Source: a virus. Taken from it: 32,278 bases of DNA. Positions 2,414-19,239 of the stretch are shown in pieces. The DNA lies in the IMG/VR virus record IMGVR_UViG_3300020463_000075, positions 1 through 32,278 of that record. One strand, 5' to 3'. The notes below the pieces were generated by a model. It was not told the DNA's origin. It saw only the letters and a program-made list of their open reading frames with translations, and did not search any database. The first letter of the stretch is position 1. The number at the start of each line of letters is the position of its first letter. Both the position numbers and the translations under genes were made by a program.

Positions 2414-2551
2414 TTAGTAACTAGCCATCCACATTATTAGAAATGGTATTGCTAAAGGTGCTAACATAAAAAATGAGAATGAAAAGTAGTCTCGAATTTT
2501 ATCACAGATTTCGCATCGATGTTCAATAATATAATTAACAGCACGACTCAT
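2414..2551 (-). CDS. Small membrane protein, 45 residues
   Basis: Reading the minus strand from 2551 gives 45 codons ending at TAA 2414-2416. The N-terminal half is polar with a CEIC motif (residues 13-16); residues about 22-42 form one hydrophobic segment (FSFSFFMLAPLAIPFLIMW), so a single-pass membrane peptide is likely. A ribosome site (AGAGGAA) lies just upstream of the start, and a T4-type late box on the minus strand (2628-2635) lies about 77 nt upstream, both supporting expression. It fills an otherwise empty gap and converges on the nuclease gene. No family is recognised. Confidence 0.65.
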   Translation of the reverse strand: MSRAVNYIIEHRCEICDKIRDYFSFSFFMLAPLAIPFLIMWMASY

Positions 2552-2566
2552 GGGAATTGTTCCTCT

Positions 2567-2574
2567 TATAAATA
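2567..2574 (+). promoter_or_regulatory. T4-type late promoter box upstream of iscU
   Basis: Exact TATAAATA on the + strand. The predicted start site, about 5-6 nt downstream, would give iscU a leader of about 85 nt. It faces the minus-strand box at 2628-2635, so the two transcripts would overlap. Confidence 0.6.
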
Positions 2575-2627
2575 GTTATAGGGTTAAAATAGTGATATTC
2601 TATCTAGTTATAGATATTCATCACTTA

Positions 2628-2635
2628 TATTTATA
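2628..2635 (-). promoter_or_regulatory. T4-type late promoter box for the 45-residue membrane protein
   Basis: The + strand reads TATTTATA, so the minus strand carries an exact TATAAATA. Transcription would run left into the gene starting at 2551. Confidence 0.6.
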
Positions 2636-2664
2636 ATAGTTATAAACTTAATTTTTAAAAAAAT

Positions 2665-3105
2665 ATGGCATATTCAAAAAAAGTTGTAGACAGATTCGAA
2701 TCTGTTTTAAACAATCCAGAAAAACACGCAGTAGGTAGGTTCGACCCTAAAGACCCTAATGTTGCAACAGGATTAGTTGGAGCTCCAGCATGTGGTGATG
2801 TCATGAAACTCGACCTTAAGATGAATGGAGATTTGATAGAAGATGTCAAATTCAAAACCTATGGATGTGGAAGTGCAATTGCGTCATCGACAATGTTTGT
2901 TGAAATGCTCAAAGGTAAAACAATTGAACAAGCAAAACAAATTAAAGATAAAGAAATTGCAGAAGCTCTTGAATTACCACCTATCAAACTACACTGTTCA
3001 GTCCTTGCAGAAGAAGGAATCAAAAAAGCAGTAGAGAACTGGGAAGAGAAAATTGCACATAGGAAACACAACCAATGGGAAGACCCAAATGGTTATGGAT
3101 ATTAA
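2665..3105 (+). CDS. iscU: Fe-S cluster assembly scaffold IscU
   Basis: A 146-residue IscU. It accepts sulfur from the cysteine desulfurase IscS and builds [2Fe-2S] clusters for transfer to apoproteins, acting in the cytosol. All functional residues are in place: Cys43 and Asp45 (GAPACGDVMKL), Cys68 (KTYGCGSAIAS), His110-Cys111 (KLHCSVLAE) and an LPPIK motif (104-108) matching the LPPVK sequence bound by the chaperone HscA. Similarity to bacterial IscU is high throughout. Compared with the 128-residue E. coli protein it has a few extra residues near position 15-22 and a longer C-terminal tail (HNQWEDPNGYGY). There is no Shine-Dalgarno; the upstream stretch is almost pure A/T. No iscS, hscA or ferredoxin gene is nearby, so it would have to work with host partners. 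Confidence 0.93.
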   Translation: MAYSKKVVDRFESVLNNPEKHAVGRFDPKDPNVATGLVGAPACGDVMKLDLKMNGDLIEDVKFKTYGCGSAIASSTMFVEMLKGKTIEQAKQIKDKEIAEALELPPIKLHCSVLAEEGIKKAVENWEEKIAHRKHNQWEDPNGYGY

Positions 3106-3109
3106 AGAC

Positions 3110-3143
3110 TTGACAAAATAGAGTTTGGTAGTATAATTATATT
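3110..3143 (+). promoter_or_regulatory. Consensus sigma70 promoter, predicted leaderless
   Basis: Perfect -35 TTGACA (3110-3115), 16-nt spacer, perfect -10 TATAAT (3132-3137). Exactly six bases separate the -10 from the ATG at 3144, so the expected +1 is the A of AUG. It drives the operon 3144-6302. Confidence 0.8.
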
Positions 3144-3461
3144 ATGGATAAATTAAAAAGATTAATCTTTTGGGTTGTCAATTGTTGGAGACTTGTCATG
3201 GACAATCGATACAACCCACTAAGACATATTAAAGACCCCTCAATCCAAGGATACTTCACGATGGCATTATTTGTAATGTGGTCTTGTTACTTTGGTGTAG
3301 TTGCATTACACTGGATGAACTGGATAGGATATAGTATTGTTTGGTCAATCATAATTCACATGGCAGTCCTTATACCAATCATGGTAACTAATGCAGTATT
3401 CCAACAAGCAGAAAAGGATGGTGCAAATTGGGTATCATCTTGGAACAAAGGTAATAAATGA
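3144..3461 (+). CDS. Two-TM membrane protein
   Basis: A 105-residue protein with a short amphipathic basic N-terminus (MDKLKRLIFWVVNCWRLV) and two hydrophobic helices, residues about 38-58 (FTMALFVMWSCYFGVVAL) and 62-85 (GYSIVWSIIIHMAVLIPIM), followed by a charged C-terminal tail ([17 protein letters not shown]). It lies in the host inner membrane by prediction. It is the first gene of the operon holding gp33, bS21, gp59 and gp32 and appears to be read from a leaderless mRNA: no Shine-Dalgarno precedes the ATG, which sits 6 nt after a consensus -10. The stop overlaps the gp33 start (ATGA). Function unknown. Confidence 0.8.
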   Translation: MDKLKRLIFWVVNCWRLVMDNRYNPLRHIKDPSIQGYFTMALFVMWSCYFGVVALHWMNWIGYSIVWSIIIHMAVLIPIMVTNAVFQQAEKDGANWVSSWNKGNK

Positions 3462-3688
3462 TACTAACTAAAAAGAGATTTGCAGAAGCAATAGAAAAAG
3501 TTGTATTAGAAAAGGGTCTTAATTACATAGATGCAATTATATACTACTGTGAAAAAGAACATCTAGACCCAGAATCAGTAAAGAATTTGATAACACCACC
3601 TCTAAAAGAAAAAATAGAAGTTGATGCAATGTCTTATAATATGTTAAAACCAAACTCAAAGAAAGGAAAAGGTAAATTACCAATATGA
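3458..3688 (+). CDS. 33: gp33, late transcription coactivator
   Basis: A 76-residue protein matching the short gp33 of marine T4-like phages: the helical core runs [20 protein letters not shown], then [13 protein letters not shown], then [15 protein letters not shown] (residues about 8-64), ending in a basic tail. In T4, gp33 binds the RNA polymerase beta flap and links the gp45 sliding clamp to polymerase carrying the gp55 sigma factor, activating TATAAATA late promoters; such promoters are present throughout this window. T4 gp33 is longer (about 112 residues). It overlaps its neighbours by ATGA at both ends (3458 and 3685). gp55 and gp45 are not in the window. Confidence 0.8.
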
Positions 3689-14710: not shown

Positions 14711-16222
14711 ATGGCAATGCTAGTAGGTAGAAATCAACCTAATTCATATCGTATTGAGAGTATTACTATTAGTAATAGTGAAGGTAATTCCTATGAAGTA
14801 AGTAATATGATGCAATCTTTTCAGATAACTGAGAGTATCTATCAGATGTTTCTTACTGGGAATATCGTACTCTTAGACAATATTAATTTATTTAATCGTA
14901 TCGGATTTAGTGGTCAAGAATATATTCGAATACATATCGGTGGTATTCAAGGGGAAGAAGAAATAGTCCCAGAAGACCAGCAAATTAATCAAGTATTTCG
15001 AATATTTAATGTAACAAATCATTACAGAGACATAGAGAACCCTAAAAATCAAGTATATTCTTTGGAATTTTGTAGTCCTTTATTATATCTTGCACGAACT
15101 CAGAGAATATCTCAGTGCTACAGAGGCAAGACAGGGACTATATTAAATAAAATATGTGAAGAAAAATTAAACTTTAAAAAGAATAAAAACCGCTTGAATG
15201 TGCATGTGAAGGGGGGGAGTGAACTCGGTAACCACTTCGGTGTCTTTGCAAATCCAGGCGATGAGAGTGGTATGATTGTACCTAACTGGAGTGTCTATAA
15301 GACCTTAGAGTGGTTGAGAGACCACACCAGTGACGACTCAGAGAGTGCAAGACCTTGGGGTGACTCTTATTACTTCTATCAGACTGCTCTCAATGGCTTT
15401 AGATTTCACAATGTTGAATCTATGTTGAGTATAGAGTATCTTAATGGTAAGGTTAAGTTCTCTCCTCGTATGGGAGATGGTGATGACTCCTTTAATTACG
15501 ACTTTGTAGAAGGTAGAGGTAATGATATACTCTCCTTCAACAAGAATAACACACATAATGTCATTCATAACCATCAAATGGGCCTCTACAGTGGTAGTAT
15601 ACAGGTATTTGACCCAAAAAACAAGACTTTAGTGACCATTGATAGTCAATTTACTCAGCAATTTCCTTTAACAGAGGGCTCAGAGGGTGAATATAAGAAG
15701 AAAAATGCTTTCAGTGTTGCACCAAACTTCCGATTAGGTGTAGAAAACATTAAAATACCACCAGATGGGGGTGTTGGAACTGTCTTAGACCCCGCTTCTG
15801 ATGCATTTAAGGGTGACAGTATCATAGAAAACCATGGTGCATCGATTAATTTTGATTATAACAACCCTTTTACCATGGGTCAAGGGATTAATATCAGTGG
15901 TCACAGTCATATGTATGGTACAGAGAGAGTTAAATTCGATAGAGATAGAGTAGAGCGCCTCTTTGCAAGTAATAGAATGAACATTCAGATATCTGGGAGA
16001 ACGAATCTAAGCGCTGGGATGGTAATTAATATAGATTTAAAGCAACCAACTCCGAGTACCATGGTGAAGGATGAAGTGACACATAATGGTAGGATGCTCG
16101 TAGAAGGTATTACTTGGTTGGGAACTCCAGATGCCTTAGAGACGCAACTCTCAGTCACCACCGATGGGTATCAAGTCAACTTAGATAACTATGAAGACCA
16201 CGAAGGGTTTGCTGAGGAATAG
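14711..16222 (+). CDS. 27: Baseplate hub protein, gp27-like
   Basis: A 503-residue protein placed between gp53 and gp5, where a hub protein is expected. The N-terminal region (YRIESITISNSEGNSYEVSN, then FQITESIYQMFLTGNIVLLD and IRIHIGG) fits the first beta domain of gp27-type hubs; the C-terminal region (SGRTNLSAGMVINIDLKQPT, then LVEGITWLGTPDALETQLSV) fits the closing barrel domain. A middle helix-rich part (TGTILNKICEEKLNFK and NWSVYKTLEWLRD) resembles the insertion found in hub proteins. T4 gp27 is 391 residues. Direct sequence similarity to gp27 is weak, so the call rests on position and domain pattern. The gene is followed by a 172-nt gap and the panD cassette. Confidence 0.62.
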   Translation: MAMLVGRNQPNSYRIESITISNSEGNSYEVSNMMQSFQITESIYQMFLTGNIVLLDNINLFNRIGFSGQEYIRIHIGGIQGEEEIVPEDQQINQVFRIFNVTNHYRDIENPKNQVYSLEFCSPLLYLARTQRISQCYRGKTGTILNKICEEKLNFKKNKNRLNVHVKGGSELGNHFGVFANPGDESGMIVPNWSVYKTLEWLRDHTSDDSESARPWGDSYYFYQTALNGFRFHNVESMLSIEYLNGKVKFSPRMGDGDDSFNYDFVEGRGNDILSFNKNNTHNVIHNHQMGLYSGSIQVFDPKNKTLVTIDSQFTQQFPLTEGSEGEYKKKNAFSVAPNFRLGVENIKIPPDGGVGTVLDPASDAFKGDSIIENHGASINFDYNNPFTMGQGINISGHSHMYGTERVKFDRDRVERLFASNRMNIQISGRTNLSAGMVINIDLKQPTPSTMVKDEVTHNGRMLVEGITWLGTPDALETQLSVTTDGYQVNLDNYEDHEGFAEE

Positions 16223-16394
16223 CCACAGTGTTTTGGGACTCCTAGGGTATTTTTTTATGCCCTTTGCCACCCCCTAAAAAGTCGTGGGAAGTTTTTATTA
16301 AAAATAATAAAAGCTTTTATATTATTATGGGACTCCTAGATTATATTCTGGGACTCCTACTAAATATATAATGGAATAAACATAGGAGAAATAT
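16223..16394 (+). promoter_or_regulatory. 172-nt intergenic region: hairpins and three GGGACTCCTA repeats
   Basis: After the hub gene come a hairpin (AGGGTAT/ATGCCCT, 16244-16250 with 16257-16263, one G-T wobble, loop of six T) that could attenuate transcription, and an AT-rich palindrome ATAAAAGCTTTTAT (16307-16320). Three copies of GGGACTCCTA sit at 16235, 16329 and 16350; the last two are 21 bp apart, two helical turns. AGGAG at 16384-16388 serves the gene at 16395. No exact sigma70 or TATAAATA box is seen. The arrangement could be an operator or a recombination footprint of the inserted cassette. Confidence 0.5.
16235..16359 (+). repeat. GGGACTCCTA direct repeats, three copies
   Basis: Exact copies at 16235-16244, 16329-16338 and 16350-16359, all in the same orientation in non-coding DNA upstream of the panD cassette. 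Confidence 0.8.
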
Positions 16395-16535
16395 ATGTTA
16401 GAAAAAATAATGACTGCACATAAAGAAATGATGTATAAATTTATTGATTTAATGGAAATAGATACTTATGAATTGTCATGGATTTGTTTTATGAAAGGAG
16501 TAATAATTACTGCTTTATTATTTTGGATATTTTAA
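16395..16535 (+). CDS. Small membrane protein, 46 residues
   Basis: Forty-six codons from ATG 16395 to TAA 16533-16535. The N-terminal half is amphipathic and Met-rich (IMTAHKEMMYKFIDLM); residues about 29-46 (WICFMKGVIITALLFWIF) form a membrane helix that ends at the C-terminus, as in tail-anchored peptides. AGGAG stands 6 nt before the start. The stop overlaps the next ATG (TAATG). First gene of a three-gene insertion ending in panD, within the baseplate operon. Function unknown. Confidence 0.6.
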   Translation: MLEKIMTAHKEMMYKFIDLMEIDTYELSWICFMKGVIITALLFWIF

Positions 16536-16705
16536 TGACAAATTGGATATATAATAAACTTGTACCATATGCTCTAAGATTCAGAGAGTGGTCAAAAAAT
16601 AAACTCTGGGTGCAGATACCTTTATTCATATTAATATTATGGATGTTAGGAATATTTAATCCCTATTGGTGTGTCTACCCAGTGTGTTGGATACAAGGAA
16701 GTTAG
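16535..16705 (+). CDS. Small membrane protein, 56 residues
   Basis: Starts at the TAATG junction 16533-16537; an in-frame ATG at 16478 would lie inside the preceding gene and has only a weak case. The N-terminal half is basic and aromatic (NKLVPYALRFREWSKNKLW), followed by one membrane helix (VQIPLFILILWMLGIF, residues about 25-40) and a Trp/Tyr/Cys-rich end (NPYWCVYPVCW). The positive-inside rule would place the N-terminus in the cytoplasm and the cysteine-bearing end outside. The stop ends one base before the panD ATG. No family is recognised; a regulator, exclusion or envelope peptide are all possible. Confidence 0.6.
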   Translation: MTNWIYNKLVPYALRFREWSKNKLWVQIPLFILILWMLGIFNPYWCVYPVCWIQGS

Positions 16706-16706
16706 T

Positions 16707-17093
16707 ATGATTAGAACTTTTTTAAATGCAAAGATACATGGTGCAATTTGCACTGAGGTTGATTTAGATTACGAGGGTTCTATACTTATAGACGAAGACT
16801 GGATTGATGAGGTGGGACTCCTAGTTAATGAACAGGTAGATGTCTATAATAAAACCAATGGTAACCGACATACAACTTATGTCCTACCATTACCCAGAGG
16901 TTCAAATGCAGTGTCAGTCAATGGTGCTGGTGCTCATTTGACCGAAGTGGGAGACGAACTGATTATTTGTTCTTACATACAATTAAATGACAATGAAGAA
17001 ACTCTATCAAATAATATATTATCCCACGAACCGAAAATTAAAATAATAGACCCCAAGGATAAACTCTACAGGGAATTACTGGAATTAGAATAA
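16707..17093 (+). CDS. panD: Aspartate 1-decarboxylase PanD, phage-encoded
   Basis: A 128-residue PanD (E. coli: 126). The enzyme decarboxylates L-aspartate to beta-alanine, the precursor of pantothenate and CoA. It is a proenzyme that cuts itself between Gly24 and Ser25 to make a pyruvoyl cofactor; YEGS is at exactly residues 22-25. Lys9, His11, Arg54, Thr57, Tyr58, Asn72 (SVNGAGAH, 70-77) and the MIRTFLNAKIH start all match the active-site positions of E. coli PanD. AAGGAAG (16695-16701) supports the ATG at 16707 rather than an upstream in-frame ATG. Its stop overlaps the gp5 start (TAATG), so it is embedded in and translated with the baseplate operon. No other pantothenate gene is in the window. 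Confidence 0.94.
   Translation: MIRTFLNAKIHGAICTEVDLDYEGSILIDEDWIDEVGLLVNEQVDVYNKTNGNRHTTYVLPLPRGSNAVSVNGAGAHLTEVGDELIICSYIQLNDNEETLSNNILSHEPKIKIIDPKDKLYRELLELE
16814..16823 (+). repeat. GGGACTCCTA copy inside panD
   Basis: Exact copy; GGA CTC CTA is in frame and encodes Gly-Leu-Leu. Confidence 0.8.
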
Positions 17094-18175
17094 TGGCAAA
17101 ATTTACAGGATTACAATCAAACTTCTATACAGGTGTAGTCGAAGACCGAAATGACCCCTTAGAAGTTGGTCGAGTGCGTGTCCGAATTTATGGGTTACAC
17201 ACCGATGACAAAACACTTATTGCAACTCCAGACTTACCTTGGAGTGATGTCCTTATGCCGACCTCTACAGCATCCTTGTCTGGTCTAGGTATGTCTCCGC
17301 ATGGTTTAGTTGAAGGTACAACTGTCATGGGGATGTTCCGAGATGAACAGGATATGCAAGACTTTGTAGTTATGGGTTCATTGTTTGGGTTACCGAATGA
17401 TACCTATAAAATTCCGAATGGTGACTCAACTAAAGCAATTCCTCGCAGTGCCGAACATGGATTCAATGACCCTCGCAGAGATACTCAGTCTGATTATATC
17501 AAATCAAAAGATGGTGTTAAAGCAAGTACTAATGGTCGTAACTGGCAACTGTTTGGTGCATTAGATACTTCTCCTAGGATTCCTACTGAGATAGACTTAA
17601 GAGAGGATGGGAGTGGTGCATTGATTGTTAATCCAGAGAAGGGTGAAAGATATCCTTTGGACTCCTATACTAAATTATCGAGAACCGATGTAAATAAACT
17701 TGCAACCACTGGTGGAGCTCCAAACGATTATCCAAATAATCTTATCAAGAAAACCGAAGGAAGTCAAGTCAAAGAACTTCCTCGTAGGGGTAATGTTAAA
17801 CCAGTATATCCTTACAATCATGTAATACAATCTGAGTCTGGTCATGTTCTAGAATTAGATGATACTCCTAAGACTGAAAGACTGCATTTATATCATAGGT
17901 CTGGAACTCGTTTAGAAGTCCTTGCTGATGGGTCACAAACTATGAAGGTAGTTAATGATTCTTATGAGATTATCTTAAAGGATAAAAAAATATTAATTGC
18001 TGGTAATGCCGATATAGAACTTATGAATGGTAGTTATGTTTTAAATGCTAAAAAAGGTAAGTCTAATGATGGTGGTAATGTCTTTATTAATACCGATGCT
18101 GATTGTAATATTAGTTCTGGTGGTGCAATTAAATTAAAAGGTAAAGTGTCAATCAATGGTACTAAGTACGATTAA
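17093..18175 (+). CDS. 5: gp5-like baseplate hub/spike without lysozyme domain
   Basis: A 360-residue gp5-type protein. Residues about 10-100 form the N-terminal OB fold (FYTGVVEDRNDPLEVGRVRV, then PWSDVLMPTSTAS, GTTVMGMFRDEQDMQDFVVM). After a polar linker the C-terminus (HVIQSESGHVLELDDTPKTE, then LHLYHRSGTRLEVLADGSQT and MKVVNDSYEIILKDKKILIA) has the repeat pattern of the trimeric beta-helix spike. T4 gp5 is 575 residues with a lysozyme domain between these two parts; no lysozyme-like catalytic motif is present here, so cell-wall digestion must be supplied otherwise. It begins at a TAATG overlap with panD and ends at a TAATG overlap with the next gene. Confidence 0.85.
   Translation: MAKFTGLQSNFYTGVVEDRNDPLEVGRVRVRIYGLHTDDKTLIATPDLPWSDVLMPTSTASLSGLGMSPHGLVEGTTVMGMFRDEQDMQDFVVMGSLFGLPNDTYKIPNGDSTKAIPRSAEHGFNDPRRDTQSDYIKSKDGVKASTNGRNWQLFGALDTSPRIPTEIDLREDGSGALIVNPEKGERYPLDSYTKLSRTDVNKLATTGGAPNDYPNNLIKKTEGSQVKELPRRGNVKPVYPYNHVIQSESGHVLELDDTPKTERLHLYHRSGTRLEVLADGSQTMKVVNDSYEIILKDKKILIAGNADIELMNGSYVLNAKKGKSNDGGNVFINTDADCNISSGGAIKLKGKVSINGTKYD
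17658..17667 (+). repeat. TGGACTCCTA (9 of 10) copy inside gp5
   Basis: One base differs from GGGACTCCTA. Here the motif is out of the Gly-Leu-Leu frame (Leu-Asp-Ser-Tyr is encoded), which argues against protein-level conservation as the reason for the repeat. Confidence 0.6.
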
Positions 18176-19239
18176 TGTCTACTACTACATCACAACCAAT
18201 TCCATGTCCACAGGTAATTGTTCCGACTGCTGACGATTTAGAACAAATAATAATCTCTATTGGTAATACTTTTGGTTGGGAATATATTAAACCAATTGAA
18301 GATATCTTAGGTGCATTCCCTTTATCTCATTCTTGGAATAAAGAATTAGATATTCCAGAGTTAGAGTGGGAAGGTAAGATACAATGTTGTATAGAAGAAT
18401 TTAAATTATTTCCAGTCATTAAAATTGCAGAGTTTCTTAAAGTTCCTTTAGTAGTTCCAATTCCAATCCTTGATATTTCAATTGACTGTGAAAGATTAAT
18501 GTCCGACCCTAGTTATAAAACTGAAATATTAAAACAGATTGAAGCAAAGGGAGCTCCAGTATTAGATTTATTTCTTAGTAAAACCACTAAAGAAAATTGG
18601 GATGGCACAGATGGTGTTGATTCACCAGATATTAAATTAAGTAAAGCATGGAAAGAGATATGTGAAAAGATTCAAAAATATTTACAATCTGGTGGAGTAG
18701 CTGCAATGTCAGATATAATAGGTAAGAGTCCAGTCGATGAAATAATAGACTTATTAGAAGAAAGTTTACCAGCTGAAGTTGGTTTTTTTCTGGGACTCCT
18801 AAAGTCTATTCCAGCAGGTGGTTATGAATTTGATGTTGATGGATTATTTCAAAGTTTAAAAAAACAAGCAGAAGAAGAAGGTGTTGCATTTCAAGAATTA
18901 ATATTAAATTTTGAAATACCTTTTGTATCTGATGTTCCATCTTTTTTAGGATTGGGTGATGTGTTACCAAAGACTCTAGGTGATTTAATTGACTTAGATA
19001 AAACTAGAGAAGTAAAAAATATAGATATGCCTAATTGGGAAATACAAAAGTTATATGAAAAATTTAGAACCTTTATAAAAGATTTACCACAAATACTATT
19101 AGAATCAGTCTTATCAATACTTAGTAAATTAATTGAATTTTTAATACCACCAGAAATTCCATTACCATTTACATTCTGTACTTTCTTATCAGTAATTGGT
19201 TTTCCAAAAGAAATTTCAGTTAGTTCTCTAACCTCTTGA
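18175..19239 (+). CDS. Putative baseplate/virion protein of unknown role
   Basis: A 354-residue mostly helical protein located between gp5 and gp25. The N-terminal part is hydrophobic with Pro-rich turns (VPLVVPIPILDISIDC, residues about 88-103); the C-terminal part holds long hydrophobic helices (LPQILLESVLSILSKLIEFL) followed by a Pro/Phe-rich stretch (PPEIPLPFTFC). No signal peptide or catalytic motif is seen. Marine T4-like phages often carry an unnamed structural protein at this point in the hub operon. It starts by TAATG overlap with gp5. A GGGACTCCTA repeat lies at 18792. Structural role is inferred from context only. Confidence 0.65.
   Translation: MSTTTSQPIPCPQVIVPTADDLEQIIISIGNTFGWEYIKPIEDILGAFPLSHSWNKELDIPELEWEGKIQCCIEEFKLFPVIKIAEFLKVPLVVPIPILDISIDCERLMSDPSYKTEILKQIEAKGAPVLDLFLSKTTKENWDGTDGVDSPDIKLSKAWKEICEKIQKYLQSGGVAAMSDIIGKSPVDEIIDLLEESLPAEVGFFLGLLKSIPAGGYEFDVDGLFQSLKKQAEEEGVAFQELILNFEIPFVSDVPSFLGLGDVLPKTLGDLIDLDKTREVKNIDMPNWEIQKLYEKFRTFIKDLPQILLESVLSILSKLIEFLIPPEIPLPFTFCTFLSVIGFPKEISVSSLTS
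18792..18801 (+). repeat. GGGACTCCTA copy inside the 18175 gene
   Basis: Exact copy; GGA CTC CTA encodes Gly-Leu-Leu here. Confidence 0.8.

Follow-up and report, generated by a model that had tools for sequence, protein, structure and literature searches.

The locus described here raises the question of why a phage would carry panD, a gene for aspartate 1-decarboxylase, between two structural genes of its baseplate hub. The window (the whole stretch of DNA analyzed, 32,278 nucleotides, IMG/VR record IMGVR_UViG_3300020463_000075) had been read in an initial annotation as containing an enzyme that could lift a CoA limit during infection, and the gene was thought either to serve late metabolism or to be a recent insertion. 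The features discussed below, from the hub gene to the last repeat copy, all lie on the plus strand.

Locus layout and the PanD protein

The left neighbor of the slot is a 503-aa hub-like tail protein (14711..16222) matching phrog_350 (E 6.6e-44), and the right neighbor is a gp5-like hub protein (17093..18175), for which PF06714 and phrog_430 confirmed the earlier identification. While the left-hand product is a tail protein, the label "gp27-like" that it had been given comes from position alone, and a profile of eight sequences found no solved relative in the PDB. The insert between hub and gp5 spans approximately 870 bp (16223-17092), in which panD (16707..17093) is preceded by sm1 (16395..16535), a 46-aa ORF with a TM-like segment at its C-terminus, and sm2 (16535..16705), a 56-aa TM-like ORF that overlaps sm1 through a TAATG. 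Both of these small TM-type ORFs, as first annotated, are present upstream of panD and have conserved homologues; sm1 was found 5' of panD in all slot-type loci for which the upstream side is available, and sm2 shows 77-98% identity where found and is missing or swapped for other short ORFs in some relatives.

The 128-aa panD product matched PF02261 along the domain with an E-value of 1.2e-34 (119 bits, compared to a Pfam cut-off of 25). Residues K9, H11, Y22, G24, S25, R54, T57, Y58, and N72 are those of E. coli PanD and are retained in all aligned phage homologues, which bears out the earlier description of an intact enzyme with a Gly24-Ser25 cleavage site and Lys9, His11, Arg54, Tyr58, and Asn72; Trp47 of the E. 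coli protein is replaced by Tyr. When an AlphaFold model (mean pLDDT 80) was searched with Foldseek, solved PanD structures ranked first (1pt0, E 7e-9), with a TM-score of 0.68-0.74 between the predicted model and 1pt0. The Pfam score, the Gly-Ser cleavage pair with the catalytic residues, and the predicted fold all place the product in the PanD family, and a chance match can be excluded because of the PF02261 E-value and the recurrence of the gene in 41 contigs. The gene probably encodes a pyruvoyl-dependent aspartate decarboxylase, with self-cleavage and activity being predicted properties.

Distribution and age of the cassette

Scanning IMG/VR with the PanD protein of the window yielded 45 loci, and in 41 of these panD lies in the baseplate region, with the order hub, small ORFs, panD, gp5 in every such locus where both flanks are present. 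The gp5 proteins of the 41 contigs are only 56-95% identical to that of the window, which indicates that the panD clade is diverse, while PanD itself shows 73-98% identity, as a rule above gp5. In L038-L041, the same PanD clade occurs at a different place, beside a PhoH-like gene. The panD-bearing contigs are genuine phage (41 have panD in the baseplate region, one of these contigs being 146 kb long), and cell contamination as the source of panD was ruled out by the phage genes on both sides of it. An 81% PanD match in a Synechococcus MAG (Synechococcus sp. CPC35; L051) is a contig of this same phage type. In addition, the 146-kb relative of L019 (G001) encodes proteins at 106426-108938 that, as judged by eye, have curlin-like repeats.

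Since a single-protein gp5 scan recovered too few relatives, gp6 and hub alignments were used instead, the hub alignment recruiting 44 loci without bias toward panD. Thirty-two of these contain panD, seven end inside the hub or no more than 370 bp past it, four are relatives at 36% hub identity that lack panD (in one of them the sequence stops 250 bp beyond the hub), and another, L308/L141, is devoid of panD despite continuing for 5 kb; panD is thus kept in 32 of the 33 testable contigs. In L141/L308, positions 2420-3512 hold the hub, repeats, sm1, and a 61-aa ORF, with neither panD nor gp5, and the contig then jumps to genes that in the 146-kb relative are approximately 32 kb distant, a junction that may be a rearrangement or an assembly chimera.

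The initial annotation had asked whether the hub gene directly adjoins gp5 in relatives that lack panD. It does so in a sister group recruited via gp6 (51-64% identity), which has neither panD nor sm1, sm2, or a cluster of repeats. In L227, L228, L264, and L303, the start of gp5 is overlapped or touched by the hub stop (TAATG or ATGA), while in the nearer relatives L337, L338, and L340 the slot contains other small ORFs. Baseplate genes related to those of the window also occur in the pelagiphages HTVC008M and Mosig and the methylophage Melnitz (Kyanoviridae). HTVC008M and Mosig share the gene order, with two unrelated small ORFs between hub and gp5 in the former and one in the latter; panD is absent from the whole records of HTVC008M, Mosig, and Melnitz, as is the repeat motif GGGACTCCTA described below, which is also absent from those of T4 and P-HM2. 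Because relatives carry either an empty site or other small ORFs, the slot is one that takes cargo. The possibility that the cassette genes are universal core genes of the group holds within one clade but not outside it, where they are absent. Either the panD cassette is therefore a derived trait that became fixed in one clade, or the sister group has lost it, and panD is accessory in the manner of an auxiliary metabolic gene, being a host-type enzyme carried on a phage genome and missing in relatives.

Comparison of the window with its relatives gave a dN/dS of approximately 0.1-0.2 for panD, which indicates purifying selection. In a tree with cellular PanDs, of the kind that the initial annotation had called for, the phage copies form one deep clade (100/99) with a long stem, L038/L039 fall outside the baseplate-located copies, and the sampled Alphaproteobacteria form a separate group (support 87/89); the cellular sequences in this tree were picked with phage-based patterns. 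Phage PanD is approximately 48% identical to its nearest true cellular relatives. The idea of a recent insertion is contradicted by the fixation of the cassette in a diverse clade, the low dN/dS, and the single deep PanD clade. Instead, the cassette is an old feature, fixed in one clade of uncultured T4-like marine phages.

Repeat array and expression

The earlier account overlooked an array of 11-bp direct repeats at this locus. Copies of TGGGACTCCTA lie right after the hub stop (16234..16244) and at 16328..16338, both unchanged in 21 leaders, and a third copy (16349..16359) follows 21 bp past the second and adjoins late-promoter-like DNA, CTAAATATATAAT; the repeat is invariant at three places in these leaders, with varying sequence in between. 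A fourth copy is located within panD (16813..16823, codons V36-L39), and a motif search identified an extra copy in a downstream 354-aa gene (18791..18801). Five exact copies of GGGACTCCTA occur in the window, or seven if one mismatch is allowed, compared to 0.85 expected. The copy in panD reads GTG GGA CTC in all 31 distinct panD sequences, followed by CTA (25) or CTT (6) at L39, whereas other Val and Leu codons of the gene vary.

Long records (146, 138, 112, and 54 kb) contain essentially one repeat cluster each, with zero control matches, and a few records have extra scattered copies within approximately 3 kb. The orientation is near-uniform (194:5) and two copies are spaced at 20-21 bp; direct repeats with mostly regular spacing in a single cluster per genome constitute an iteron-type layout. 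The paired repeat pattern was found in 81 IMG/VR stretches compared to two for a scrambled pattern, and about half of the 81 fall outside the panD clade (L163 and L210 were left out of the repeat analysis as coding repeats). Homology links 34 of the 39 paired-pattern stretches examined into a second T4-like phage group, in which gp17/gp20-type genes were recognized by eye in those inspected and the motif lies shortly 5' of operon starts. Regions of approximately 1 kb that contain few convincing ORFs along with 4-7 copies of the repeat are also found in L340 (9254-10311) and L337 (9488-10791), between the gp5 region and gp25 and without panD, and the repeat element is therefore not bound to panD. 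One copy, in L177 (601-653), lies between TTGACA and TATAAT, which suggests a DNA-level site. An Rfam search gave no match, and a literature search for the repeat 10-mer gave, among the matches listed, only unrelated ones.

The T4-type late promoter TATAAATA is approximately 9-fold enriched 5' of genes in the 146-kb relative, and repeat copy 3 continues into TATAAATA in several leaders (e.g., L008, L011, L020, L029, and L051) and into a TAAATA-like sequence in others. Because the array abuts this enriched promoter type, the cassette is likely expressed late, as the initial annotation had supposed. The translational coupling of panD to gp5 by TAATG, also proposed there, is visible in the window but is not general, with gp5 starting 3 to approximately 175 bp past the panD match in related loci.

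Judging from its sequence and placement, the repeat may act as a late-promoter operator, an iteron-type origin, or another single-site signal. It is conceivable, if somewhat doubtful, that the array marks an iteron-type origin or other single-copy cis site (partition, packaging, or recombination) and that the cassette simply rides alongside. The single cluster, orientation, spacing, and invariant 11-mer would all suit such a site, as would the likeness to T4 oriE, whose iterons are directly repeated and likewise belong to the gene 5 region. However, the repeats found in this part of T4 are 24 nt long, belong to the gp5 coding sequence, and are unlike TGGGACTCCTA, and homology to oriE was rejected at the sequence level. 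GC skew shows no turning point or origin signal at the array, the adjoining late-type promoter makes an operator or activator role equally plausible, and the placement of the motif near operon starts in the second group also argues against an origin. The broader proposal, that TGGGACTCCTA arrays represent a new type of single-site cis element (an iteron-like origin or comparable) in at least two marine T4-like groups and that in the panD clade this site has been built into panD, constraining its codons, is offered tentatively. Whatever its role, the shared repeat provides a concrete cis element for functional work in uncultured marine phages.

Candidate hosts, metabolic role, and known systems

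We consider it probable that the hub-gp5 insert is an old, clade-fixed cargo cassette, in which the repeat array and its late-type promoter are followed by sm1, a small membrane ORF that varies, and panD, and from which a working PanD would be made late, along with the baseplate genes. The enzyme would convert aspartate to beta-alanine, a precursor of vitamin B5, and a host with PanC and without its own PanD could then continue pantothenate and CoA synthesis during infection. This reading draws on the gene itself, its residues and predicted fold, its fixed position, purifying selection, the sites that are empty in relatives, and the existence of a candidate host group that keeps panC but has no panD. 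This group is the SAR11 order, in which SAR11 genomes were identified by means of a 16S probe: panD was found in 0 of 117 genomes and panC in 54 of 58. In the class at large (Alphaproteobacteria), 23 of 142 genomes contained panD, in agreement with a reported 17% (PMC7142369). Since Alphaproteobacteria have other routes to beta-alanine (PMC7142369), the absence of panD from SAR11 does not imply a need for it.

SAR11 may be the host of the panD phages and is a candidate only. The isolates closest to the clade, which infect SAR11 or OM43, are only 40-43% identical in gp6. Neither the window nor the records of three relatives yielded a panC. The iscU-like gene of the window (2665-3105) does not support a SAR11 host; its full-length relatives (up to 63% identical) are in other Alphaproteobacteria, compared to a 27% partial match in one SAR11 genome, and the host may thus not be SAR11. 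In the order to which the best iscU match belongs, panD was present in 0 of only four genomes, too few to be informative. A cyanophage host, suggested by the Synechococcus MAG, is not supported, as no photosynthesis gene was seen by eye among the ORFs of the 146-kb relative and gp6 is nearer to Melnitz and the pelagiphages. The expectation that likely hosts lack panD holds for SAR11, although iscU argues against that host, and relief of a CoA limit is consistent with the absence of panD and presence of panC in what is a candidate host. Late placement, however, leaves a vitamin pathway little time for pay-off.

A less probable alternative is that the slot is a tolerated cargo position (a hyperplastic site) and that panD has a non-CoA use, such as an aspartate drain or a change in amino-acid pools. 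The other small ORFs found there in HTVC008M, Mosig, L337, L338, and L340 and the variability of the small ORFs near panD fit this reading, but panD is constant in the clade and under purifying selection. It is improbable that the PanD homotetramer serves in the baseplate, alongside hub and gp5, as a structural or assembly component with catalysis incidental, despite the fixed site between two hub genes, the late-type promoter, and conservation that as a rule exceeds that of gp5. Every active-site and cleavage residue checked is conserved, which is what catalysis would require; the same hub is built by sister phages that lack PanD, and in L038-L041 this PanD clade is encoded at a different site. 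Under the favored metabolic reading, a phage enzyme for a step whose gene, panD, is missing from SAR11 and most other sampled Alphaproteobacteria would represent a virus completing, rather than boosting, a vitamin pathway of its host, and the fixed site among hub genes indicates that a metabolic gene can settle permanently in a late structural operon.

Compared to cellular PanD (PF02261; E. coli 1ppy/1pt0), the phage protein shares the predicted fold, the G24-S25 pair, and the other residues listed above, but it is only 41% identical to the E. coli enzyme, has Tyr for W47, and belongs to a separate, long-stemmed clade encoded in a late phage operon. Viral genes of the same B5/CoA pathway have been described from a marine oxygen minimum zone (PMC8940887); these, reported from viromes, are genes for pantoate transferase and pantothenate kinase, and the main text of that study does not mention panD. 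Phage panD as such is already known, having been annotated in the isolated genomes of Gordonia phage Jace and Achromobacter phage 2-1, but those genes are 34-42% identical and lie beside ParB-like or DNA polymerase genes, outside any baseplate operon. The repeat element is the most novel part of the locus.
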